64,000 nt of DNA, taken from Spirochaetales bacterium (GTDB lineage: Bacteria; Spirochaetota; Spirochaetia; SZUA-6; DRHE01). Under the pieces are notes generated by a model. The model saw only the letters and a list, made by a program, of their open reading frames with translations. It was not told the origin of the DNA and did not search any database. Positions 5,108 through 61,543 of the stretch are shown here, in pieces; the stretch's first letter is position 1, and each line of letters starts with the position of its first letter. The stretch covers positions 1-64,000 of the forward strand of contig JAUWZD010000004.1 of the NCBI GenBank assembly GCA_030615505.1, given 5' to 3'. Made by a program: the position numbers and the translations under genes.

Positions 5108-7126
5108 GTGCGCACACCGCAGAAGGAGTGCTACAAGGGAGTCAAGCTGAAGTATAGCATGCAGGCGGGTATGGTGGAAAGCGATTGTAAGCTTATCGGG
5201 AAGTTCGAGGGCTCGCTGAGGGAACTGGAGCCTGTGGAGATAAGGCTTGTAGATGATAAGGCCCACGAAAAGTTGTGGAACCGGGTGGTAAGAGACTATC
5301 ACTACCTCGGCCACAAGAGGATTCCCGGAAGAAGGTTGAAATATATTCTGTATGCCCGCGACCAGGTTATCGGAGCTATGGGCTGGAAGAGTGGTTCTTT
5401 GAAGCTTGAGGCTCGGGACTGCTTTATCGGCTGGTCTGCAGAACAACGCAAGCAGTATCTGGATCATGTAGTAAATAACAATCGCTTACTGATCTTCCAG
5501 TGGCTGAAAGTGAAGAACCTGGCCTCCCACGTGCTGGGGCGAGCCATGCAGATGGTAGTCAGGGATTGGCAGAACCGCTATGGGGTGGGGCCATGGGTAC
5601 TGGAGACCTTTATCGATGGAAGTAGATTTCGTGGTAGCTGCTACAGGGGTGCCAATTGGAAGCTGGTCGGCTACACGAAAGGATATGGAAAACAAGGCAA
5701 GGGCTATCACTATCACGGTCAGAAGAAGGAGGTATATGTCTATGTAGTAGAGCCGGAGTTTCGAAGGATCATTGGGTGTAACAGACGCAGCTATTCTCAG
5801 AAGCGGAGCCTGATAAAAGAGAAAAGGAGCAAGCTGCGTATGGTGATTCAAGAGCTTGGATTTAATCCTGAGCTGATCTATTGGACACAGATCGGCCCAG
5901 AGATGACAGAGAAGATGGCCGATGAGCTGGTAGAGTTTCACGATCTGTTTGCCGATTTTTTCCGCCGCCCTGAGCCACGGCTGTTAGGGTTGAGCTATCT
6001 GATGGGGCTTCTCAGCGATCTTCGGCGCAAGACCATGGAGGCGATAGCGCTGGCCTTTGAAGGAGAGACTCGGGTCAGAAGCATGCAAAACTTCTTTAGC
6101 CGCTATCCATGGGATGACCGACGAATGTTAGCCCGTTGTGCCGAACTGCTGGCAGAAGAGATTGACACAGAAAATGGAATGTATATCGTAGACAGCACAG
6201 AAATACAGAAGAAAGGTGAAGAATCGGTAGGAGTGGCGAGACAATACTGTGGGAATCGAGGTAAGGTGGAGAACTGCCAGTCGGGAGTATTTGTGGGTTA
6301 CACCAGCACGATTGGGTACGGGCTTGTAGACAGGCAGCTGTATATGCCCGAGCGCTGGTTTAGTGAAGAGTATGCTGAGAGGCGCAGCCGGTGTGGAGTG
6401 CCGCGCGGGCTGGAGTTCAAGAGCAAGATTGATATAGCCCTTGAGTTGTTGGATAGACAAATTCAAAGCGGGATCTTTCGAAGCAAATGGATAGGTTGTG
6501 ATTCGGCTTTTGGTGTCAACCAGATTTTTCGCGACCGGGTAGCGAGCTGGGGCAAGTATTACCTTGCCGCAGTTCCGGCGAACACAAAGGTTTGGCCCTT
6601 GCCGCAGGAAGCAGGGGTAAGTGAGCAAGAAGAGAAACAGTTACAGGGCTTCGAGGTCCGCCGGCTTTTAGAAAGCCCCGAAAGAGAGTGGAATCAGGTG
6701 ATCCTTGCCGAAGGGACGAAAGGTCCTATTGTAGCCCAAGTAAGCATCCTGCGTGTGAGGGAGAATAGGAAAGGAAGACCTGGGCCGGAGGCGTGGTTGA
6801 TTATCAGAACATTGGAAGGTAGAAAAGTAAGGTACTATCTAAGCAACGCCCCCGAGAGCACCCCGAGGGCTGAGTTATACCAGGCGCTGGTAATGAGGTG
6901 GCCGATCGAGCAATGTTTTGAAGACGGCAAAAAGTATCTGGGTATGGATCATTACGAGCACCGCAACTGGAGAAGCTGGCATCGGCACATGCTGTATGTG
7001 TTTCTGGCGCTGCTGTTTCTATTACGGCTACGGCTGAAATATAAAAAAAACTCCAACCCTCACCCTTCCCCAAGTGCAGACACTTTTAATCGAAGTATTG
7101 GACTCAAGACGGCTCGACAGACGTGA
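5108..7126 (+). CDS. Transposase: DUF4338 (DruA-like) N-terminus fused to DDE domain
   Basis: Residues about 40-230 match DUF4338, the domain of Druantia DruA (YHYLGHKRIPGRRLKY, ETFIDGSRFRGSCYRGANW, GYGKQGKGYHYHGQ). From about 310 on it is an IS701/IS4-like RNase H transposase. The likely catalytic triad is Asp362 (IVDSTE), Asp465 (IGCDSAFG) and Glu601 (WPIEQCFEDGKKYLG), and VGVARQYCGNRGKVENCQ is the hallmark segment. It starts with GTG. The frame is open upstream to 5054 without a start codon, so the real start is uncertain. The natural C-terminus appears to lie in another frame after an A8 run (7043-7050): LPQVQTLLIEVLDSRR…YRSHRKKKLLKL, ending at 7226. The printed C-terminus from about residue 646 is therefore probably out of frame. 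Confidence 0.85.
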   Translation: MRTPQKECYKGVKLKYSMQAGMVESDCKLIGKFEGSLRELEPVEIRLVDDKAHEKLWNRVVRDYHYLGHKRIPGRRLKYILYARDQVIGAMGWKSGSLKLEARDCFIGWSAEQRKQYLDHVVNNNRLLIFQWLKVKNLASHVLGRAMQMVVRDWQNRYGVGPWVLETFIDGSRFRGSCYRGANWKLVGYTKGYGKQGKGYHYHGQKKEVYVYVVEPEFRRIIGCNRRSYSQKRSLIKEKRSKLRMVIQELGFNPELIYWTQIGPEMTEKMADELVEFHDLFADFFRRPEPRLLGLSYLMGLLSDLRRKTMEAIALAFEGETRVRSMQNFFSRYPWDDRRMLARCAELLAEEIDTENGMYIVDSTEIQKKGEESVGVARQYCGNRGKVENCQSGVFVGYTSTIGYGLVDRQLYMPERWFSEEYAERRSRCGVPRGLEFKSKIDIALELLDRQIQSGIFRSKWIGCDSAFGVNQIFRDRVASWGKYYLAAVPANTKVWPLPQEAGVSEQEEKQLQGFEVRRLLESPEREWNQVILAEGTKGPIVAQVSILRVRENRKGRPGPEAWLIIRTLEGRKVRYYLSNAPESTPRAELYQALVMRWPIEQCFEDGKKYLGMDHYEHRNWRSWHRHMLYVFLALLFLLRLRLKYKKNSNPHPSPSADTFNRSIGLKTARQT

Positions 7127-15528: not shown

Positions 15529-17601
15529 TTACTTAGAGCCCTGGGGCTGAACCTCTTCGAGCATATTGAGATATTTCTCTGATTCAGCCCACAGGCGGGT
15601 GAGCACACGCAAGTTATCGACACATAACAGTCCTTTTTCCTGAAAATCGCATTTCTTAAAAGTGCCTGTAATGCCCACAAACTCAATGCCTTTATTTTTT
15701 GCAAACTCGCTGTCCTTAAAAGAATCACCTGCAAAGAGCACCTCATCGGGCCGCAGGTTGTAATGCTCGAGGATGAAATCGATCTGCCTGCTTTTTTGAA
15801 AATCCGGCTTAAGACCGAAGTATCCGTCAACCAGCCCATGGATCCTGTTTGAACGTAAGTATTCGTTTATGATCTCCTGCGGTGTGCTGCTGCAGACGAA
15901 CAGCGGGATTTTCTTCCTTTTAAAGAATTTCAGTGCACGAATGACTTCGGGAAAGAGGGGATGATCCATAACGCTTTTACGCTTCTCAGCCTCAAAAGAG
16001 GATATTACATGCCGGTTCTTTGTATGATTCGGAAAGATCAATTCCATCTGGCTGGCAAAATCCAGCCCTGAGGTTTCAAGGTATTTTCTCCTGGCCTCCT
16101 CTTCGGAGATATTGTAGTTCTCAACCATCAGGCGGGTGGCCAAATCCGTCAGGAAGGGCATTGTGTCAGCAACCGTTCCGTCAAAATCTAAAATTACAGC
16201 CCTGATCTCGCGCTTTACCAGCAAGTCTTTCTTAAAAGAAAATTTCCAGGATATAAAAACCCGCTTCAGTACTATTGCATTGGAGATCGCGGCTAATAGA
16301 AACAAGGCAATAAGAACAGAGATCGGGTGAAGAGCTGCCATCACGCCTCCTGAGAAAAGAATGAACAACCTGAGATCTCTTCCCCTTCCTGCTGTAATCC
16401 ATCTTCCCTTATATCGGTAATTGAAATCTGCTAAGGATTTAGCTGAGGTATAGCTGACCATCACATTCCCAACTATTGCCAGACCGGAGATTAAAAAAAT
16501 CAACGGTACCCCGGGACCCCCAAGCAGGCGCAGGCTTTCCGATGAGGTCAGGGAATAGCAGAACATACCGAAGATGATGAAACAATCTGTGTATCGATCC
16601 AGTACGGCATCAAAGAATTTGCCAAAAGATGACTCCATTTTTTTAAGACGAGCGATCTCTCCATCGCAGCCGTCCAATATACTTGCCAATTGTACTAAAA
16701 TCCCACCTATTATTGCTTTGTGAAAAAGGAAGAATAAGGCGGCTAAGATTCCTGCAGCAGCGCTTATCATTGTAACTATATTCGGAGTAATTCTATTAAA
16801 GAGTTTTAAGATCAATGGTGTAAAAAGACGGGTTGAGACCTTCCTGTTGATTTTTCTGGAAATCCAGCCGTCAGAAGGTTTTGTTAAAGTCCTGTAGAGC
16901 ATCTTTTTAGCCTTTTTCCAGTCCTCAGGCGTATCGATGTCCATCCAGTAATGGTCCTTAATATCGAAGATTCTATCCTTCCCTTGATCAGAAAGGATCT
17001 TCATACCTCCTGAAAGGGAAGAGTCGCCCTTCCGGGAACTCTCTTCGAGAGCCCGAAAGATACAGGGAGAACAGAGAAACATCCCGGTATCGTAGGCATT
17101 GTACTCTTTAATATTTTTACCGATATCCAGAATCGTAAGGTCTTTTACGAGCACTTTCGTGACATCATTTACATCGATAAGCTTATTTCCCGAGATTTTA
17201 AAGTCAGCTGCCAATACTACTTCGTCATCTATATCTGATGTCTTAATCAGGTCGATCAGGGTTGCTTCTTCGAAGATGTGGTCTGCCATTAACAGGATAA
17301 AATTCTCATGGAGAAAATTCTTCGCCTTCAGTACGGATATACCGTTTTCTTTGCTTTGCCATTCATCGTTTCGGATAAAATGTATCTTTAGATTTTTTCG
17401 TAAGGAAAGATGTGAGAGAAACTCCTCGACCTTTTCTGTCTTGTAACCGGTCACGACATAAAATTCATTAATGCCTGCTCTTTGGGCAGTAAGGATTGTG
17501 CGTTCAATTAACTTAAGACCCAAAAGAGGAAGAAGAGGCTTGGGAACTCCTACATGAGATAGTCTGTTGCCTTGACCGGCAGCAATGATTAAACATTTCA
17601 T
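15529..17601 (-). CDS. Fused nucleotidylyltransferase / CDP-alcohol phosphotransferase / HAD phosphatase
   Basis: A 690-aa protein with three enzymes in line. Residues 1-235 are a sugar/inositol-phosphate cytidylyltransferase (AAGQGNRLSHVGVPKPL at 7-23; LLMADHIF at 103-110). Residues about 245-450 are a membrane CDP-alcohol phosphotransferase with the complete DGxxDG..AR…G…D…D signature: Asp310, Asp313, Gly327, Asp331 and Asp335. Residues about 466-680 are a HAD phosphatase (DFDGTVADT at 472-480, SSTPQE, FAGDSFKDSEFA). The first two domains follow the layout of IPCT/DIPPS, which makes CDP-inositol and condenses it with inositol-1-phosphate to di-myo-inositol-phosphate phosphate. The HAD domain could supply the final dephosphorylation. 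Alternatives are synthesis of another polyol phosphodiester or an inositol lipid. No inositol-phosphate synthase gene is in the window. Confidence 0.82.
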   Translation of the reverse strand: MKCLIIAAGQGNRLSHVGVPKPLLPLLGLKLIERTILTAQRAGINEFYVVTGYKTEKVEEFLSHLSLRKNLKIHFIRNDEWQSKENGISVLKAKNFLHENFILLMADHIFEEATLIDLIKTSDIDDEVVLAADFKISGNKLIDVNDVTKVLVKDLTILDIGKNIKEYNAYDTGMFLCSPCIFRALEESSRKGDSSLSGGMKILSDQGKDRIFDIKDHYWMDIDTPEDWKKAKKMLYRTLTKPSDGWISRKINRKVSTRLFTPLILKLFNRITPNIVTMISAAAGILAALFFLFHKAIIGGILVQLASILDGCDGEIARLKKMESSFGKFFDAVLDRYTDCFIIFGMFCYSLTSSESLRLLGGPGVPLIFLISGLAIVGNVMVSYTSAKSLADFNYRYKGRWITAGRGRDLRLFILFSGGVMAALHPISVLIALFLLAAISNAIVLKRVFISWKFSFKKDLLVKREIRAVILDFDGTVADTMPFLTDLATRLMVENYNISEEEARRKYLETSGLDFASQMELIFPNHTKNRHVISSFEAEKRKSVMDHPLFPEVIRALKFFKRKKIPLFVCSSTPQEIINEYLRSNRIHGLVDGYFGLKPDFQKSRQIDFILEHYNLRPDEVLFAGDSFKDSEFAKNKGIEFVGITGTFKKCDFQEKGLLCVDNLRVLTRLWAESEKYLNMLEEVQPQGSK

Positions 17602-17823: not shown

Positions 17824-18870
17824 ATGGGTTATGGTTTCGGTATTATAGGACTGGGTCTTATTGCGGACTTCCACGCAAGGGCAGTTCAGGCTATGAAAAA
17901 CGGCGAGCTCCTTGCCTGCTGCTCCAGGAGCCAGGATAAAGCAGATGCCTTTGGTGAAAAATTTCAGTGCACGGGTTATTCAAGCCTCAAAGAATTCCTG
18001 GCTCATCCCGGCCTGGATGTGGTAACCATCTGCACACCATCGGGTGCGCATCTTGATCCATCCTTAGCGGCAATTGAGTCGGGGAAGCATATCATAGTTG
18101 AGAAACCCCTGGAGATAACGTTGAATCGGTGTGACGAAATTATTGAAGCCGGCAGGAGAAAGAGTGTAACAATTGCAGGTATATTTCCATCCCGATTCTA
18201 TGAGGTCGTTCATGTAGTGAAGCACGCTGTTGATAGGGGCAGGTTCGGAAGCATGGTTTTGGGGGATGCCTATGTAAAATGGTTCAGAAGCCAGGCCTAT
18301 TACGATGAAGGCGGTTGGAAAGGAACATTAAAGTTTGACGGCGGAGGGGCTCTCATGAACCAGTCCATTCATGCAGTCGATCTACTACAGTGGTTTATGG
18401 GTCCTGTGGATTCTGTACAGGCATTCATCGGGACCCTTGGTCATGAAAGGATCGAGGTCGAGGATGTGGCAGTGGCAGCCCTGCATTTTAAAAACGGTGC
18501 CCTGGGCGTTATCGAGGGTTCCACGGCCGTGTATCCCGGTTTCTTAAAGAGGATTGAAATATCAGGAACAGAGGGGAGTGCCGTTTTAGAAGAAGAAAAT
18601 CTTAAGGAATGGATTTTCTCTGAAGAGGCTAAAGAGGATGAAGAAATCAGAAGAAAATTTTCAGCCAAACCGGAGACCGGCGGCGGCGCCGCTGATCCTG
18701 CTGCGATCGGTTTCCATGGACATCAGAAGCAGTTTGAAGATATGGTGGAAGCCCTTGATAAGGGTAAAAGCCCCCTGGTAGACGGAGCCGAGGCCAGAAA
18801 AGCGGTGGAAATAATTCTTGCTATTTATAAGAGCTCAAAGCAGGGAAGGCCGGTAAAACTCCCCTTATAG
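17824..18870 (+). CDS. Gfo/Idh/MocA-family NAD(P)-dependent oxidoreductase
   Basis: A 348-aa protein with an N-terminal Rossmann fold (GFGIIGLGLIADFHARA, residues 4-20), the family motif IIVEKPLEI with the conserved Lys (about 97-100), and a C-terminal alpha/beta substrate domain (GGGALMNQSIHAVDLLQWFMG, with the conserved His). Members oxidise or reduce sugars, inositols or UDP-sugars. It is divergent from the CDP-inositol-type fusion, so an inositol-related substrate is possible but unproven. Its end overlaps the convergent DUF554 gene by 6 bp. Confidence 0.85.
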   Translation: MGYGFGIIGLGLIADFHARAVQAMKNGELLACCSRSQDKADAFGEKFQCTGYSSLKEFLAHPGLDVVTICTPSGAHLDPSLAAIESGKHIIVEKPLEITLNRCDEIIEAGRRKSVTIAGIFPSRFYEVVHVVKHAVDRGRFGSMVLGDAYVKWFRSQAYYDEGGWKGTLKFDGGGALMNQSIHAVDLLQWFMGPVDSVQAFIGTLGHERIEVEDVAVAALHFKNGALGVIEGSTAVYPGFLKRIEISGTEGSAVLEEENLKEWIFSEEAKEDEEIRRKFSAKPETGGGAADPAAIGFHGHQKQFEDMVEALDKGKSPLVDGAEARKAVEIILAIYKSSKQGRPVKLPL

Positions 18871-19566: not shown

Positions 19567-19640
19567 AGATTAGGACTATAGCGTATGCGGAAGGGATTGA
19601 AAAGCAGAAAGACGGTTTGGAAGCATGGAGGGGATTTATA

Positions 19641-21158
19641 ATGCCTGAAAGCCGGCTTTGTCTATCTTTAACCGGCAAGACCCTCAGATCGAATCTTGAT
19701 TGCATCTCCAAATACAGGAAGAAGATCGATATGGTTGAGCTCAGGGCGGATTTCCTGAAACCTTCCGAGCTGGGCTCAATTCAAAGATTTCCAGGCAAGT
19801 GCGATCTCCCGGTTATTTTCACCGTAAGACTGCATAGGGATGGCGGGTATTTTTCAGGCAAAGAGAAAGACCGCCGTAAACTCCTCTCGGAAGCTGCAGG
19901 CAGTGGGTACAGCTATATTGATATTGAGGAAGATCTGGTTGATAGAGAATTGGAGCATCATATCCGGAAAAACGGAGCAAGGATAATCCGTTCCATACAT
20001 GATTTCTCAGGCGTGCCCGGAAATCTGGCAGGACGTATCAGGAATCTATCACATAATCCCGCTGACATTCCCAAAGCTGCCGTAATGCCTCAGAATACAC
20101 TCGAGCTCTTAAGACTCATAGAGATATTTCAGGATCTTGAAACTAGTCAGAAGATCTTGATCGGCATGGGCGAATTGGGGCTCCTCACAAGGGTCCTGGC
20201 CCCAAAGCTGGGTTCCTGGTTGAGTTACTGCTCCAGCCCGGAAAAAGAGGCGGCTCCCGGCCATCTGGACCCCGATCAGCTTATAGACCTGTACCGCTTC
20301 AAAAGTATCGATGCCTCAACTCAAATTTTCGGTGTTATTGGTAATCCGATCCGGCACTCTCTGTCACCTCAAATTCATAATTACGGATATAAGGTTTTAG
20401 GGATTAATGCCGTATATCTGCCTTTATTAGTGGAAGATCTGGAGAGCTTCTTCCGTTTAGCGGATATTTTAAGGATTAAAGGGTTGTCCGTTACTCTCCC
20501 CCTTAAAGAGTCTGTTATATCACACCTGGCCGAGCAGGATGAACGCCTGGGATCAATCGGCGCCTGCAACACCCTGGTTCGAAAAGCTTCCGGCTGGTAC
20601 GGTACCAATACGGATGTTGATGGCTTCTTGAAACCACTTAAAACAATGTGTCTAAATAAGGAGCTTACGGACAGGCCTCAAGCCGGGGAATTCGGTCCCG
20701 GACCCAGGCTGAAAGCCACCGTGATAGGCGCCGGCGGAGCGGCGCGTTCTGTGGTCTATGCCCTCAATCAATGCGGCATTAAGCCGCTTATACTGAACCG
20801 GACTACAGAAAGGGCTGAAAGTCTGGCCCGCAGATTCGGATGTCCCTATTCCGGCATAGATGCACAGGGGTATGCCTTAATAGAAGAATATTCGGATCTT
20901 ATTGTCCAGAGTACCAGTGTGGGTATGGAACCTCAAGCAGGGGGAGATCCGCTTCCGGATTACAGGTTCAAGGGAACTGAATTGGTGTACGATCTGGTTT
21001 ATAAACCTCATTTAACCAGGTTCTTACAGAGGGCCCAGGATGCAGGCTGCAGGATCATCCCGGGCCTGGAAATGTTGAAAAGCCAGGCAGAAGCCCAATT
21101 CAAGCTGTTCACCGGAAGGGAGTATCCTATATATTCCGTTTCACGCTATAACAATTAA
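19641..21158 (+). CDS. aroDE: Bifunctional 3-dehydroquinate dehydratase / shikimate dehydrogenase
   Basis: A 505-aa protein starting at ATG 19641, with GGAGGGG seven bases upstream. An upstream TTG is disfavoured. Residues 1-215 are a type I dehydroquinase: Glu33 and Arg35 in ELRADFL, catalytic His120 in RSIHDFSG, and the Schiff-base Lys145 in ADIPKAAVM. From about 222 it is AroE: VIGNPIRHSLSP binds shikimate, Lys in SVTLPLKES is catalytic, followed by GTNTDVDGF and the NADP loop VIGAGGAARSVVYAL. It carries out two consecutive steps of chorismate biosynthesis. The fusion is known from plants, chlamydiae and some bacteria. A class V aminotransferase follows after 22 bp. Confidence 0.92.
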   Translation: MPESRLCLSLTGKTLRSNLDCISKYRKKIDMVELRADFLKPSELGSIQRFPGKCDLPVIFTVRLHRDGGYFSGKEKDRRKLLSEAAGSGYSYIDIEEDLVDRELEHHIRKNGARIIRSIHDFSGVPGNLAGRIRNLSHNPADIPKAAVMPQNTLELLRLIEIFQDLETSQKILIGMGELGLLTRVLAPKLGSWLSYCSSPEKEAAPGHLDPDQLIDLYRFKSIDASTQIFGVIGNPIRHSLSPQIHNYGYKVLGINAVYLPLLVEDLESFFRLADILRIKGLSVTLPLKESVISHLAEQDERLGSIGACNTLVRKASGWYGTNTDVDGFLKPLKTMCLNKELTDRPQAGEFGPGPRLKATVIGAGGAARSVVYALNQCGIKPLILNRTTERAESLARRFGCPYSGIDAQGYALIEEYSDLIVQSTSVGMEPQAGGDPLPDYRFKGTELVYDLVYKPHLTRFLQRAQDAGCRIIPGLEMLKSQAEAQFKLFTGREYPIYSVSRYNN

Positions 21159-57248: not shown

Positions 57249-60200
57249 TCAATCACTGAATCGCGACCTGGCCAATTCCATAGCTTCCCGGGTAAAAATT
57301 TCAAAATGTTCGGATGAAAATTTTTTATTTAGGATACAATTCTTGATTTCTCTACGCATTTCTTTTTGGATATCCTCTTTTTCTGCCCAATCAATTACAA
57401 TTCTGCTTTTTATAACTTCAACGATTTCCCTTGACAAGGAGCTCATCTTTACATCGTCTCCGGCAAAAAGTTCATTTTTATAAGGTTCCAATAAGCCGTA
57501 AAAGGCAAACTCGTCCATTGTTAACCCTTTTTCTTTGGCTATCTCCTCTCGTCTCTCTTCCTTCTTTTTCAGCTTAACCAAATTCTTGAGTAATTCAGCT
57601 TCATCTTTACGCCTCTTCCTATCAGTTTCGATAACAATCTCCAATTGATCCTTAAGGGATTCATAGTAGTGCGGGTCTTCAGCAATCTTTGCGGTAATGG
57701 TTTCCCGAAGTGCGTATTCAATATGGCTGGCCTTAGCTTTTCCGCTCCCTTTAATGTTAAGTTTCTCTTCGAAATCTGGAGCGGTTATATTAACAGGAGC
57801 AAGGATTTCTTCCATGCCTGTATCAAGAATATGGGCATGAATGAGCTTTTCAACTTTTCTGCTGATACTTTCCATACTAAATCGGTTATCGCGGTATAGA
57901 TTACGCGCACCTTCCCGGATCATGCCGAGAAACTTGAAATCTTCTATAAAGGGCTCGACGCAGGGGTCTGGCATGAGGATATCCATACTTCTTGCAAACT
58001 CACGGAAGATTAATTCAAAATAAGAGCGAATATCTTTAGGTAGAAGAATTTCCAGGCACTGCTGAATTACTTCCTCAGGCTTTCCATCACGCTTTATTTT
58101 TTTAAACAGAGCTATCGCTTTTTTATGCGCTTCTTTCAGAGCAGCCAGTTCATTATTAATATCATCAATGCTGAAAAACCCTTTAAGGTCTTCCTCGTCA
58201 AAAATTGCCAGAGATTCAGCCAGTTCCTTACCGATGCCTATGTAATCAACAACGAGTCCAAAGTTCTTACGTTGATTGGGACGATTCGTACGAGCCACTG
58301 CCTGGAGGAGAGTATGTTCTTTCATTCTTTGATCCAGGTACATGGTCTGGAGAATGGGAGCGTCAAAACCGGTTAACAACTTGTCACAGACTATCAGAAT
58401 CTTTAAATTACAAGCCGGATCCTGGAATATCTCCTTTCCTGTTATACGATCCTCTTCCGACGGGGATCTGCGGTATTTATCTTTCCACTCTTTCGGGTCT
58501 TCGTTATTTACCGTCATCACGATTGTGGACCAGGAAGGATCGATCAGCCTGTCAAGAGCCTCTTTGTACATTACTGCTGTTCGCCGATTGGCGGTCACGA
58601 TCATTGCTTTAAAACCGTTTGGGGTTATTTTCTTTTGATAATGATTAACAATATCAAGCGCTATACGCTCAATCCTTCGCGGAGCGCTGAGCACAGTGTC
58701 GAGGGTTGCGTATCGTCTCTTTATTTCAGCCAGCTCTTCCTTTGTCTTCTTGGGAAACAAATTTTTAAGCAGATTATCGATAGTGTTACCTACAATATGA
58801 AGATTAGCCATACGACTCTCATACTTAATCGGGACAGTGGCGCCATCCTCAATAGACTGGTGCATATCGTATCGATCCAGATATTTTTCACCCGGTGCAC
58901 TAAAATGCCTGTAGGTATTACGATCCCTCTTATCGAGGGGAGTCCCGGTAAAGGCAAAAAGACTGGCGTTGGGCATGGCTTTACGCAAATTGAGGGCGAA
59001 ACTACCATATTGAGTTCTATGAGCTTCATCAGTCATGACGATGATATTTTCAGCAGTTGATAAGGGCTCCCCCAGTGGTTTTCTGAACTTCTGTACAGTA
59101 GTCATGATCGTATTCCCGGCACCTGTTTTGAGCAAATCATAGAGCTCCGGTCTATTTCGAGCCTGGATGGGATTGGGGAAACCGCAGTTCTCAAAGGTTC
59201 CGGTAATTTGATTGTCCAGCTTAATCCTGTCGGTTACAATTAAAATCACCGGATTTCTTAAGGCTTCTTCTTCCCTCCTTAATTTGACTGCGGCAAAAAC
59301 CATGATGAGAGACTTACCGGAACCCTGCCAGTGCCAGATAATCCCGCGTTTCTCATCATCGTGGAGAACCCTATTTACAAGTCTGTTCACCGCAGAATAC
59401 TGCTGATAGCGGCAGATCTTCTTTTCAACTTTAAGTTTTTCTTTACTGTAATCATAAACAATAAAATTCTGGATAATATCAAGAAGATTTCTCTTTTTAC
59501 AAAGCCCTGCTAACATAACCTCCTGCATAGGTGGGCTATCGCTTAAGTCTTTTTCTTCAATCAATCCCAACTCAAGCATTTCCTTTACCGAGGGATGTTC
59601 CGCCATGTTCGGCAGCTTTCCTCCGTTTAGATCCTTCCACTCATGATATTGATCTGAACTTGCCTCTATTGTCCCATATTGAGCGGCGAAAAGGTTACAA
59701 CCAATGAGGATTTCGTTTGTTCGAAAAAGCTGCGGAATATCTTTCTGGTAGCGGATTAGCTGGATTTTTGCATCCGCTACTTCTTTTTTCTTTGCCACCG
59801 GGTTCTTGCATTCAATAACGACTAAAGGAATTCCATTGACAAAAAGTACAATATCCGGCCGGTCCTGGATTCTTTGCCTTCGCACCCAGAATTGATTCAC
59901 TAGCAAAAACTCATTGTTTTCAGCATTCTTAAAATCGATGAAATGAACAGTAAGCTTTTGGCGCTTGGCCATCATGTCCTGGTCTACCGATATACCGGAG
60001 ATCAGGTATTTATGGAAAATACGATTCGCCTCTAACGTGCTTTCTTCCGGAATGTGGGATATCCTTCTTACAGCCTTTTCAATCGATTTATCGGTAAGCT
60101 CAGGATTGATCTCCACCAGTTTCTTTTTAAGACGATCTTCCAGAACAACATCCTTGCGCGATTTCCGGTCACAATCCTCGATCAATTCAGGGTCCAGTTG

Positions 60201-60293
60201 ATCGCCGTGAATGTGGATGTAGCCAAGCCGCTTAAGCTGCTCGATAGCGGGCTGCTCGGAAAGAGTGTCCTCGTTAAACTAAGCTTTCGGCAT
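57249..60293 (-). CDS. hsdR: Type I restriction enzyme R subunit with an amber codon at position 5
   Basis: The motor-nuclease of a type I R-M system. The natural frame begins MPKA-stop-FNEDTLSEQPAIEQLKR from ATG 60293, with TAG at 60281-60279 where relatives have Gln. The frame then runs unbroken to 57249; a downstream TTG start at 60185 would yield 978 aa. PD-(D/E)XK nuclease: RPDIVLFVNGIPLVVIECKNP. Helicase: WHWQGSGKSLIMVFAA (about residue 285 of the short form), DEAHRTQYGSF, and SF2 motifs (VARTNRPNQRKNFGLVVDY). Without suppression or reinitiation it would be off or truncated. It follows hsdS and precedes the YgjP-like gene. Confidence 0.88.
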
Positions 60294-60302
60294 AGTGCAT
60301 CC

Positions 60303-60438
60303 TTACGCTTTAACTCTTACCTTACCTGTTAATAAAACTTGCATCATACCCTTCTTAATTGTATCCAACCTCTCTTTATATGCAATCTCTTTTTCGATAT
60401 CGTTATCAATGGAGCATAGTATAGAAGCGATTTTTTTT
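60303..60438 (-). other. A8 tract and out-of-frame C-terminus of hsdS
   Basis: T8 at 60431-60438 (A8 on the coding strand). A one-base gain would reopen the frame to TAA at 60305-60303. Confidence 0.75.
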
Positions 60439-61543
60439 GTTCAGGAAGATGGGGGAGGGGTATAATAATTGATTCCAAATCTTCTCTAGGCAAGCCATTG
60501 ATAGAAGTACCTTGAATAAAGGATTGTATTTTTTGCGAATTCTTTATTAAGTACCAGTAGAGATATTCTGTATACACTTTTTCGCCTAGAAGGATTAGTC
60601 CTGTGATGTCCTGACTTATTGCGATATTAAATGGTGAAATGGCAATTTTACCGACACCGGTTCTGGTAACTACTAATAGACTCCCCTTTTGTATTATATT
60701 TGTAGAGCTGTTCTTAATTCCTTCTTCTGTCAAATATTTTCTTATTCTTCTAATCTTTTGATTATCAAAGTCCGCACCTGTTATCCAAGGAATTGTTCCA
60801 TCCCAATAACTATGATTATTTGTACTGGGAGTTCCGCCGTTAATGAAATTGTTAACTATGCTTTTAAGTTTTACAACTTCCAAATCCACCGGAATCTCAC
60901 CAATCTCCGTCTTTTTAAACTCTGCATGCCCAATACCTCTCGTAAGCAGTTGCTGTAAGAGCCCTTTTTTTAACTGTTTTTTCTTTTCAATAATTTTTAC
61001 CTTTTTCTCAATAAGCTCATCTAAAGCTAATAAGATTTCAGCAATCTTTTTTTGTTCAGGGAGAGGAGGAAATGGAATCTTTAAGTTGTGCAATACATCT
61101 TTATTAATTGCTTCAAAAGTACTTCCCTGGGATATTTTTTGCAGGACTTTTTTAAAACAATTCATTATAAAATACAAAAAATGGTTATCGATAATAATTC
61201 CTCTTATTCTTGCTAATCCCCTACCAATACAACATCTCTGCAGTGCAATATTCACATCACCTACTGGAGCGCGAACACTTACAAGAATATCTCCTTCTTC
61301 TGCTATTTGTTTGGGTGAATTGCACCATTTGTTTATATTTGGATATATGCTCCCGAATTCAGCTTTGCCTTGAAAGAAAGGGATGCCATTTTCATAGTCA
61401 AAGCAGTTTGAAGAGGGTGGAGACTGTCCCATTTTAATTTTTGCTACTGCGCTTAGTTTTCTAACTTCCCAATCTACAGGTATCTCGCCGATTTCCGTCT
61501 TTTTAAATTTCTTATCTGTCTGCAAACTATCTATTTGTTTCAA
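60344..61543 (-). CDS. hsdS: Type I specificity subunit, frameshifted at an A8 tract
   Basis: A 399-aa product with two target-recognition domains (about 15-175 and 215-380), each ended by a PLPEQKK coiled-coil helix. The first is normal (PPLPEQKKIAEILLALDELIEKK). The second reads PEQKKS and then runs out of frame after an A8 run (T8 at 60431-60438 on the + strand). One more A restores IASILCSIDNDIEKEIAYKERL… and a stop at 60303. The half-repeats FKKTEIGEIPVD(W/L)EV at 61463-61507 and 60874-60918 could recombine to exchange TRDs. The result is a likely phase-variable or decayed specificity subunit. Confidence 0.88.
   Translation of the reverse strand: MKQIDSLQTDKKFKKTEIGEIPVDWEVRKLSAVAKIKMGQSPPSSNCFDYENGIPFFQGKAEFGSIYPNINKWCNSPKQIAEEGDILVSVRAPVGDVNIALQRCCIGRGLARIRGIIIDNHFLYFIMNCFKKVLQKISQGSTFEAINKDVLHNLKIPFPPLPEQKKIAEILLALDELIEKKVKIIEKKKQLKKGLLQQLLTRGIGHAEFKKTEIGEIPVDLEVVKLKSIVNNFINGGTPSTNNHSYWDGTIPWITGADFDNQKIRRIRKYLTEEGIKNSSTNIIQKGSLLVVTRTGVGKIAISPFNIAISQDITGLILLGEKVYTEYLYWYLIKNSQKIQSFIQGTSINGLPREDLESIIIPLPHLPEQKKSLLYYAPLITISKKRLHIKRGWIQLRRV
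60874..60918 (-). repeat. Second hsdS FKKTEIGEIPVD repeat
   Basis: Near-identical DNA copy of 61463-61507, a possible recombination site between the two TRDs. Confidence 0.7.
61463..61507 (-). repeat. First hsdS FKKTEIGEIPVD repeat
   Basis: 45-bp partner of 60874-60918, encoding FKKTEIGEIPVDWEV at the beginning of the first TRD. Confidence 0.7.

Follow-up and report, generated by a model that had tools for sequence, protein, structure and literature searches.

A fusion of an inositol-phosphate cytidylyltransferase-like domain, a CDP-alcohol phosphotransferase and an HAD phosphatase as a candidate di-myo-inositol phosphate synthase

Di-myo-inositol phosphate (DIP) was formerly taken as a marker of hot environments. 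IPCT/DIPPS, in which a CTP:inositol-1-phosphate cytidylyltransferase (IPCT) is followed by a CDP-alcohol phosphotransferase that makes the phosphorylated diester DIPP, is already known, including from non-thermophilic deep-sea archaea. In the A. fulgidus enzyme (PDB 4mnd), domains 1 and 2 are arranged as in the three-domain protein described here, with the same fold over 406 residues and the same catalytic and acceptor residues, but the enzyme comes from a hyperthermophile, lacks an HAD domain and is only about 34% identical to our protein. IPCT/DIPPS genes in non-thermophiles have previously been reported mainly for deep-sea Thaumarchaeota, whose two-domain proteins are likewise predicted to synthesize DIP (PMC7265257, PMC8397731, PMC10773090). 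No HAD domain has been reported for these proteins, and the DIPP phosphatase role has been given to the product of a nearby IMPase gene (PMC8397731, PMC7265257).

The gene cluster of Phocaeicola (Bacteroides) vulgatus and a gene fusion in Prevotella veroralis encode the same three activities, with the inositol-phosphate synthase (MIPS) nearby and CDP-inositol as the proposed intermediate (PMC9246714). These genes are separate or only partly fused, however, and a lipid has tentatively been proposed as the product; our comparison with them is by description and not by sequence. AF2299 (4o6m, 4o6n, 4q7c) also combines a cytidylyltransferase-type domain with a phosphotransferase, and the latter is the closest to ours by sequence (107 bits), but the cytidylyltransferase domain of AF2299 is vestigial, its donor is CDP-glycerol and it has no HAD. 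The phosphatidylinositol-phosphate (PIP) synthases (5d92, 6h53) share the phosphotransferase fold and the residues that bind the inositol-phosphate acceptor, but they have a lipid groove and a CDP-diacylglycerol donor, and the native enzyme has no fused domains. In the literature searched, mostly outside subscription journals, we found neither a description of the three-domain protein or of an HAD or HD phosphatase assignment, nor an established gene for the final phosphatase of DIP synthesis.

Domain organization and active-site residues

The window, the whole 64,000-nucleotide stretch of DNA analyzed here, belongs to a metagenome-assembled genome (MAG) of the Spirochaetota (4.44 Mb, 93% complete). 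An ATG-started ORF of 690 amino acids occupies exactly positions 15529-17601 on the minus strand. A sequence-only reading of the window had described it as a three-enzyme fusion, and the fusion is real: Pfam places NTP_transf_3 at aa 3-130 (4.4e-12), CDP-OH_P_transf (PF01066) at aa 271-429 (9.4e-14) and HAD_2 at aa 469-644 (4.6e-20). Homologous ORFs with the same domain order and 50-60% identity are present on 17 further MAG contigs, so the fusion is not an artefact of assembly or of a frameshift.

The top PDB match of the protein is A. fulgidus IPCT-DIPPS 4mnd (E 2e-55, aa 1-449). The best curated NCBIfam model is NF041135 (bifunctional IPCT/DIPPS), which covers aa 1-453 with 286 bits against a curated cut-off of 580; because this model takes its name from a single archaeal order, the low score excludes only the Thermococcales equivalog and not the wider family. 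An AlphaFold2 model built from an 80-row alignment had a mean pLDDT of 92 and a pTM of 0.75, and was used in place of a model from a three-row alignment, which was discarded (pLDDT 50). In a fold search, residues 1-454 of the model matched 4mnd with a Z score of 35.5 and an rmsd of 2.6 Å over 406 of 408 residues (34% identity), and the T. maritima inositol-1-phosphate CTP transferase (4jd0) matched with a Z score of 28.5. Sequence and fold, together with the MIPS operon context of the relatives described below, lead us to read domains 1 and 2 as IPCT/DIPPS, the pattern that the sequence-only reading had recognized.

The first domain (aa 1-240; 16882-17601, minus strand) resembles CTP:inositol-1-phosphate cytidylyltransferases, with matches to 2xme (E 7.5e-25), 4mnd and 4jd0, and its motifs G-x-G-x-R, K21-P22, D107 and W219-x-D-x-D are intact. 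Kinship with teichoic-acid or glycerol (TagD-type) cytidylyltransferases, the contrary placement named when the assignment was first made, was rejected: the top matches are of the NTP_transf type, and no TagD family is among the matches listed.

The second domain (aa 241-456; 16234-16881, minus strand) is a DIPPS-like CDP-alcohol phosphotransferase, with matches to PF01066, 4mnd and AF2299, and has six membrane helices (aa 246-460) in the AlphaFold2 model. Its signature, D310-x2-D313-G-x2-A317-R318...G327-x3-D331-x3-D335 (16597-16674, minus strand), had been called complete, and a check of the alignment columns agrees. In PIP synthases, R155 and R195 (M. tuberculosis numbering) and S132 bind inositol phosphate, with R155 binding its phosphate, and Pro153 lines the lipid groove (PMC4634129). 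Alignment with the mycobacterial 6h53 places R411 (16369-16371), R447 (16261-16263) and S383 (16453-16455), all on the minus strand, at R155, R195 and S132, respectively, and D409 at Pro153. None of the four residues varies among the 18 three-domain proteins, and the Asp at the position of D409 is also present in 4mnd and AF2299.

Since S383, R411 and R447 are kept and D409 replaces the proline found with a CDP-diacylglycerol donor, inositol phosphate is the probable acceptor and a polar compound the probable donor, as in DIPP synthase. With inositol phosphate as the acceptor, the product should retain a phosphomonoester. The six predicted helices are consistent with a soluble acceptor, and the conservation of the inositol-phosphate residues, but not of the lipid-groove residue, favors a soluble DIP-like phosphodiester over a lipid product. 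S383 and R411 are missing in the separate phosphotransferases of other Spirochaetota, so the acceptor of those enzymes may differ.

The third domain (aa 464-665; 15607-16212, minus strand) was delimited by the HAD_2 match and an 18-row alignment. HAD motifs I-IV (DxDGT, S, K and DS-x2-D) are present, motif I being D472-F-D474 (16180-16188, minus strand), with the nucleophile and the acid/base residue, and D472, D474, T476, S571, K603, D626 and D630 are invariant in 18 of 18 three-domain proteins. A profile of the domain matched only generic PGP-like HADs in the PDB. The fold search with the whole model is uninformative on the HAD fold, because the matches listed were mostly to domain 1.

Other features of the window include a 671-aa ORF with a DruA-like domain and a DDE_5 transposase domain (5108-7126, plus strand), a type I 3-dehydroquinase fused to a shikimate dehydrogenase (19617-21158, plus strand), and genes for the R and S subunits of a type I restriction system (57249-61543, minus strand).

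Distribution of the fusion

Relatives were collected by a profile scan of GTDB species genomes with a three-row alignment as the query; a single-sequence query found nothing. The scan identified 80 loci. The three-domain architecture occurs in 17 of these (L037-L051, L056 and L075), with a whole HAD in 16 and a contig end within the HAD in L046. The two-domain form is found in 62 loci, and the contig of L052, which is missing its 3' end, stops before the position of the HAD. By their names, the three-domain MAGs belong to Spirochaetes, Deltaproteobacteria/Desulfobacteraceae, Chloroflexi, Planctomycetota/Scalindua, KSB1 and Pseudomonadota. The three-domain form, which had been judged notable, is thus not unique to the window genome but occurs in marine-sediment bacteria of several phyla. 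Overall, MAGs of Nitrospina, ANME-1, Chloroflexota, Planctomycetota, Spirochaetota, SAR324 and others carry related genes, which in many cases share an operon with MIPS. Many of the carrier MAGs are apparently marine, judging by their record names.

A phylogenetic tree of the shared part contained one branch, with 99/100 support, dividing the three-domain from the two-domain proteins. The sister of the window protein is L037, from a Spirochaetales MAG (100/99). The A. fulgidus protein 4mnd joins the three-domain side, but through a very long branch, so the tree leaves the direction of change (gain or loss of the HAD) unpolarized.

In three of the three-domain proteins (L048:8001-10055, L050:8001-10055 and L051:3314-5368), the cytidylyltransferase no longer has its G-x-G-x-R motif; these loci, and no others, have a gene for a TagD/HldE-type nucleotidyltransferase upstream. 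By analogy with AF2299 and CDP-glycerol, these proteins may use another CDP-linked donor while retaining the HAD. A gene for a glycerophosphodiester phosphodiesterase (GDPD) occurs near the inositol gene in four loci (L040:6930-7760, L044:4942-5316, L056:10922-11761 and L114:6436-7317), possibly for turnover of the diester.

Candidate phosphatases and inositol supply

An HD-domain gene (PF13875/HD, about 190 aa) directly follows 51 of the 62 two-domain genes, mostly overlapping the gene end, and is adjacent to none of the three-domain genes. This overlapping gene for a DUF4202-like hydrolase is conserved across many phyla (L093:9307-9894 is an example), and its profile found no convincing relative in the PDB. 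Genome-wide, HD was found in 3 of 19 three-domain genomes (L052 included) versus 24 of 31 two-domain genomes (Fisher 2.8e-5). Of the three, G404 has a separate two-domain gene (L053) as well, and in G400 and G409 both HD and HAD are present. Conversely, all 10 three-domain genomes examined have the HAD subfamily of the fusion, as does 1 of 32 two-domain genomes, G419, which has no HD. The two hydrolases are therefore nearly mutually exclusive by genome, which makes both of them candidate DIPP phosphatases, and the exclusivity largely reflects one deep split in the tree and not many independent events.

Standalone HADs of the fusion subfamily occur in 25 of the sampled Spirochaetota genomes, and MIPS is present in 24 of these 25 versus 8 of 368 others, in families that are not independent. 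The Methanophagales locus L057 (6887-11808) contains MIPS, the two-domain gene, the HD gene, an unrelated ORF, an HAD remnant that lacks motif I, and finally an IMPase gene, an order that one might expect had HD taken the place of a fused HAD.

The invariant catalytic residues, the HD/HAD exclusivity, the gene order of L057 and the co-occurrence of standalone HADs with MIPS all suggest that the HAD works as a phosphatase of the inositol pathway, and the simplest reading is that it acts on DIPP. The suggestion that the appended HAD performs the missing dephosphorylation, made in the sequence-only reading, thus gains indirect support, from the acceptor site, from MIPS co-occurrence and from the replacement by HD. 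The HD hydrolase beside the two-domain IPCT/DIPPS genes is, by its position and distribution, a candidate for a second DIPP phosphatase.

MIPS (PF01658) is encoded in 43 of 50 carrier genomes and in 14 of 17 three-domain genomes, the window's own being excluded from both counts, and its background rate is 32 in 393 Spirochaetota genomes. In 45 loci, including the three-domain loci L042 and L056, MIPS is encoded within the locus itself, its gene usually lying immediately upstream. The expectation that the genome would encode an inositol-phosphate synthase was therefore borne out in most carriers but not in the window's own genome, where searches with PF07994 and PF01658 found none in the 93% complete MAG. 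Likewise, no MIPS was found in the Spirochaetota carriers G393, G402 and G417, in the KSB1 carrier G401, or in G419, G425 and G427.

The window genome has an IMPase-family gene and two PfkB-type kinases (L204:4562-5533 and L205:3837-4715), both of which show the R-x-G-R-G-D motif of pyrophosphate-dependent ribokinases. For the first kinase the top match is T. maritima TM0415 (174 bits), followed by 3w4s/4xf6, which we take to be the Thermococcus inositol kinase. TM0415 is a pyrophosphate-dependent myo-inositol kinase, and its product, Ins(1)P, is the opposite enantiomer to the one formed by MIPS (PMC5931981). For this reason we regard salvage of inositol by the two kinases as a possible, and not a probable, supply of inositol phosphate in the window genome. 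Such a route, if real, could consume the pyrophosphate released by IPCT. Among 19 three-domain genomes, a homologue of this TM0415-like kinase was found in 3 of the 4 without MIPS versus 1 of the 15 with MIPS (p 0.016, on small numbers). The kinases adjoining the genes in L051, L080, L084 and L093 have an ATP-type motif and not RxGRGD.

A gene for a Gfo/Idh/MocA-type dehydrogenase adjoins the three-domain gene in the window (17824-18870, plus strand), and another adjoins it in a second spirochaete (L008:2125-2943, minus strand). The window protein is nearest to inositol 2-dehydrogenase, at 145 bits, far under the cut-off of 355.

Proposed pathway and alternatives

To our knowledge, the source organism is not a known DIP producer. 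On balance we favor the interpretation that the window protein is a trifunctional DIP-type synthase; its domain identities and intact motifs are seen in the sequence, and its substrates and the HAD reaction are what we infer. Domain 1 would convert inositol-1-phosphate and CTP to CDP-inositol and pyrophosphate. The membrane domain would then move inositol phosphate from CDP-inositol onto a second inositol-1-phosphate, producing DIPP, and the HAD would hydrolyze the phosphomonoester that is left, so that DIP, a soluble osmolyte, would be the end product. In most relatives the inositol phosphate would come from the MIPS of the same genome, often the product of a neighboring gene; in the window MAG only inositol-kinase-like genes could supply it, conceivably from imported inositol through the TM0415-like kinase. 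The absence of MIPS from the window genome and from three other Spirochaetota carriers counts against this interpretation, as does the degraded cytidylyltransferase motif of L048, L050 and L051. The joint proposal, that the HAD is the DIPP phosphatase of a one-polypeptide DIP synthase and that HD is a second, unrelated DIPP phosphatase, is advanced tentatively, as plausible but short of probable.

An inositol phospholipid is reportedly made from CDP-inositol and a lipid alcohol in Rhodothermus marinus, in work said to be by Jorge in 2015, and a lipid product of this kind, with the HAD serving another lipid step, would be an alternative for the window protein. Inositol-lipid makers among Bacteroides and Prevotella have the three activities as separate genes beside MIPS (Heaver 2022, PMC9246714), a phosphotransferase-HAD fusion has been described in Prevotella veroralis (PMC9246714), and Spirochaetota with separate genes have an HAD beside an NTP transferase (L010, L013, L016, L028 and L183). 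We nevertheless consider a lipid product unlikely, as the window phosphotransferase has inositol-phosphate acceptor residues that the separate Spirochaetota enzymes lack, has Asp in place of Pro153, has only six helices where lipid-acceptor enzymes typically have more (PMC4634129), and groups with the DIPP synthase 4mnd by both sequence and fold. The inositol lipid headgroup that the sequence-only reading had left as an alternative is disfavored accordingly.

It is also conceivable that domains 1 and 2 are IPCT/DIPPS and that the HAD has a housekeeping role as a phosphatase of inositol phosphates or sugar phosphates, having been joined to them by chance or for the sake of regulation, with an IMPase finishing the pathway. 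An IMPase-family gene is directly downstream of the three-domain gene in L039, L048, L050, L051 and L056, where its product could be the DIPP phosphatase in the HAD's stead, and another is nearby in L057. The HAD superfamily is promiscuous, and the subfamily HAD of G419 is situated among sugar-metabolism genes. However, the fusion and the catalytic residues are retained over several phyla, two-domain genomes with the HD gene have no HAD, and the IMPase-like protein scores under all curated IMPase, CysQ and HisN cut-offs, so that a housekeeping role is improbable. A mixed diester such as glycerophosphoinositol, made with a CDP-glycerol-like donor produced elsewhere, would suit the three proteins with a degraded IPCT motif, which are exactly those with the upstream nucleotidyltransferase gene, and AF2299, with its vestigial cytidylyltransferase domain, does accommodate CDP-glycerol (PMC4634129). 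For the window protein and the remaining members, in which the motif is intact, we consider such a product very unlikely.

As a DIP-type synthase, the fusion would offer the HAD as a specific candidate for the final phosphatase of DIP synthesis, and the comparison with two-domain loci adds a second, the HD/DUF4202-type hydrolase. If both assignments are correct, the last step of DIP synthesis would be filled, and many non-thermophilic bacteria and archaea of sediments would make DIP-type solutes. A number of these producers, such as the organism of the window, would start from salvaged inositol by way of a pyrophosphate-dependent kinase.
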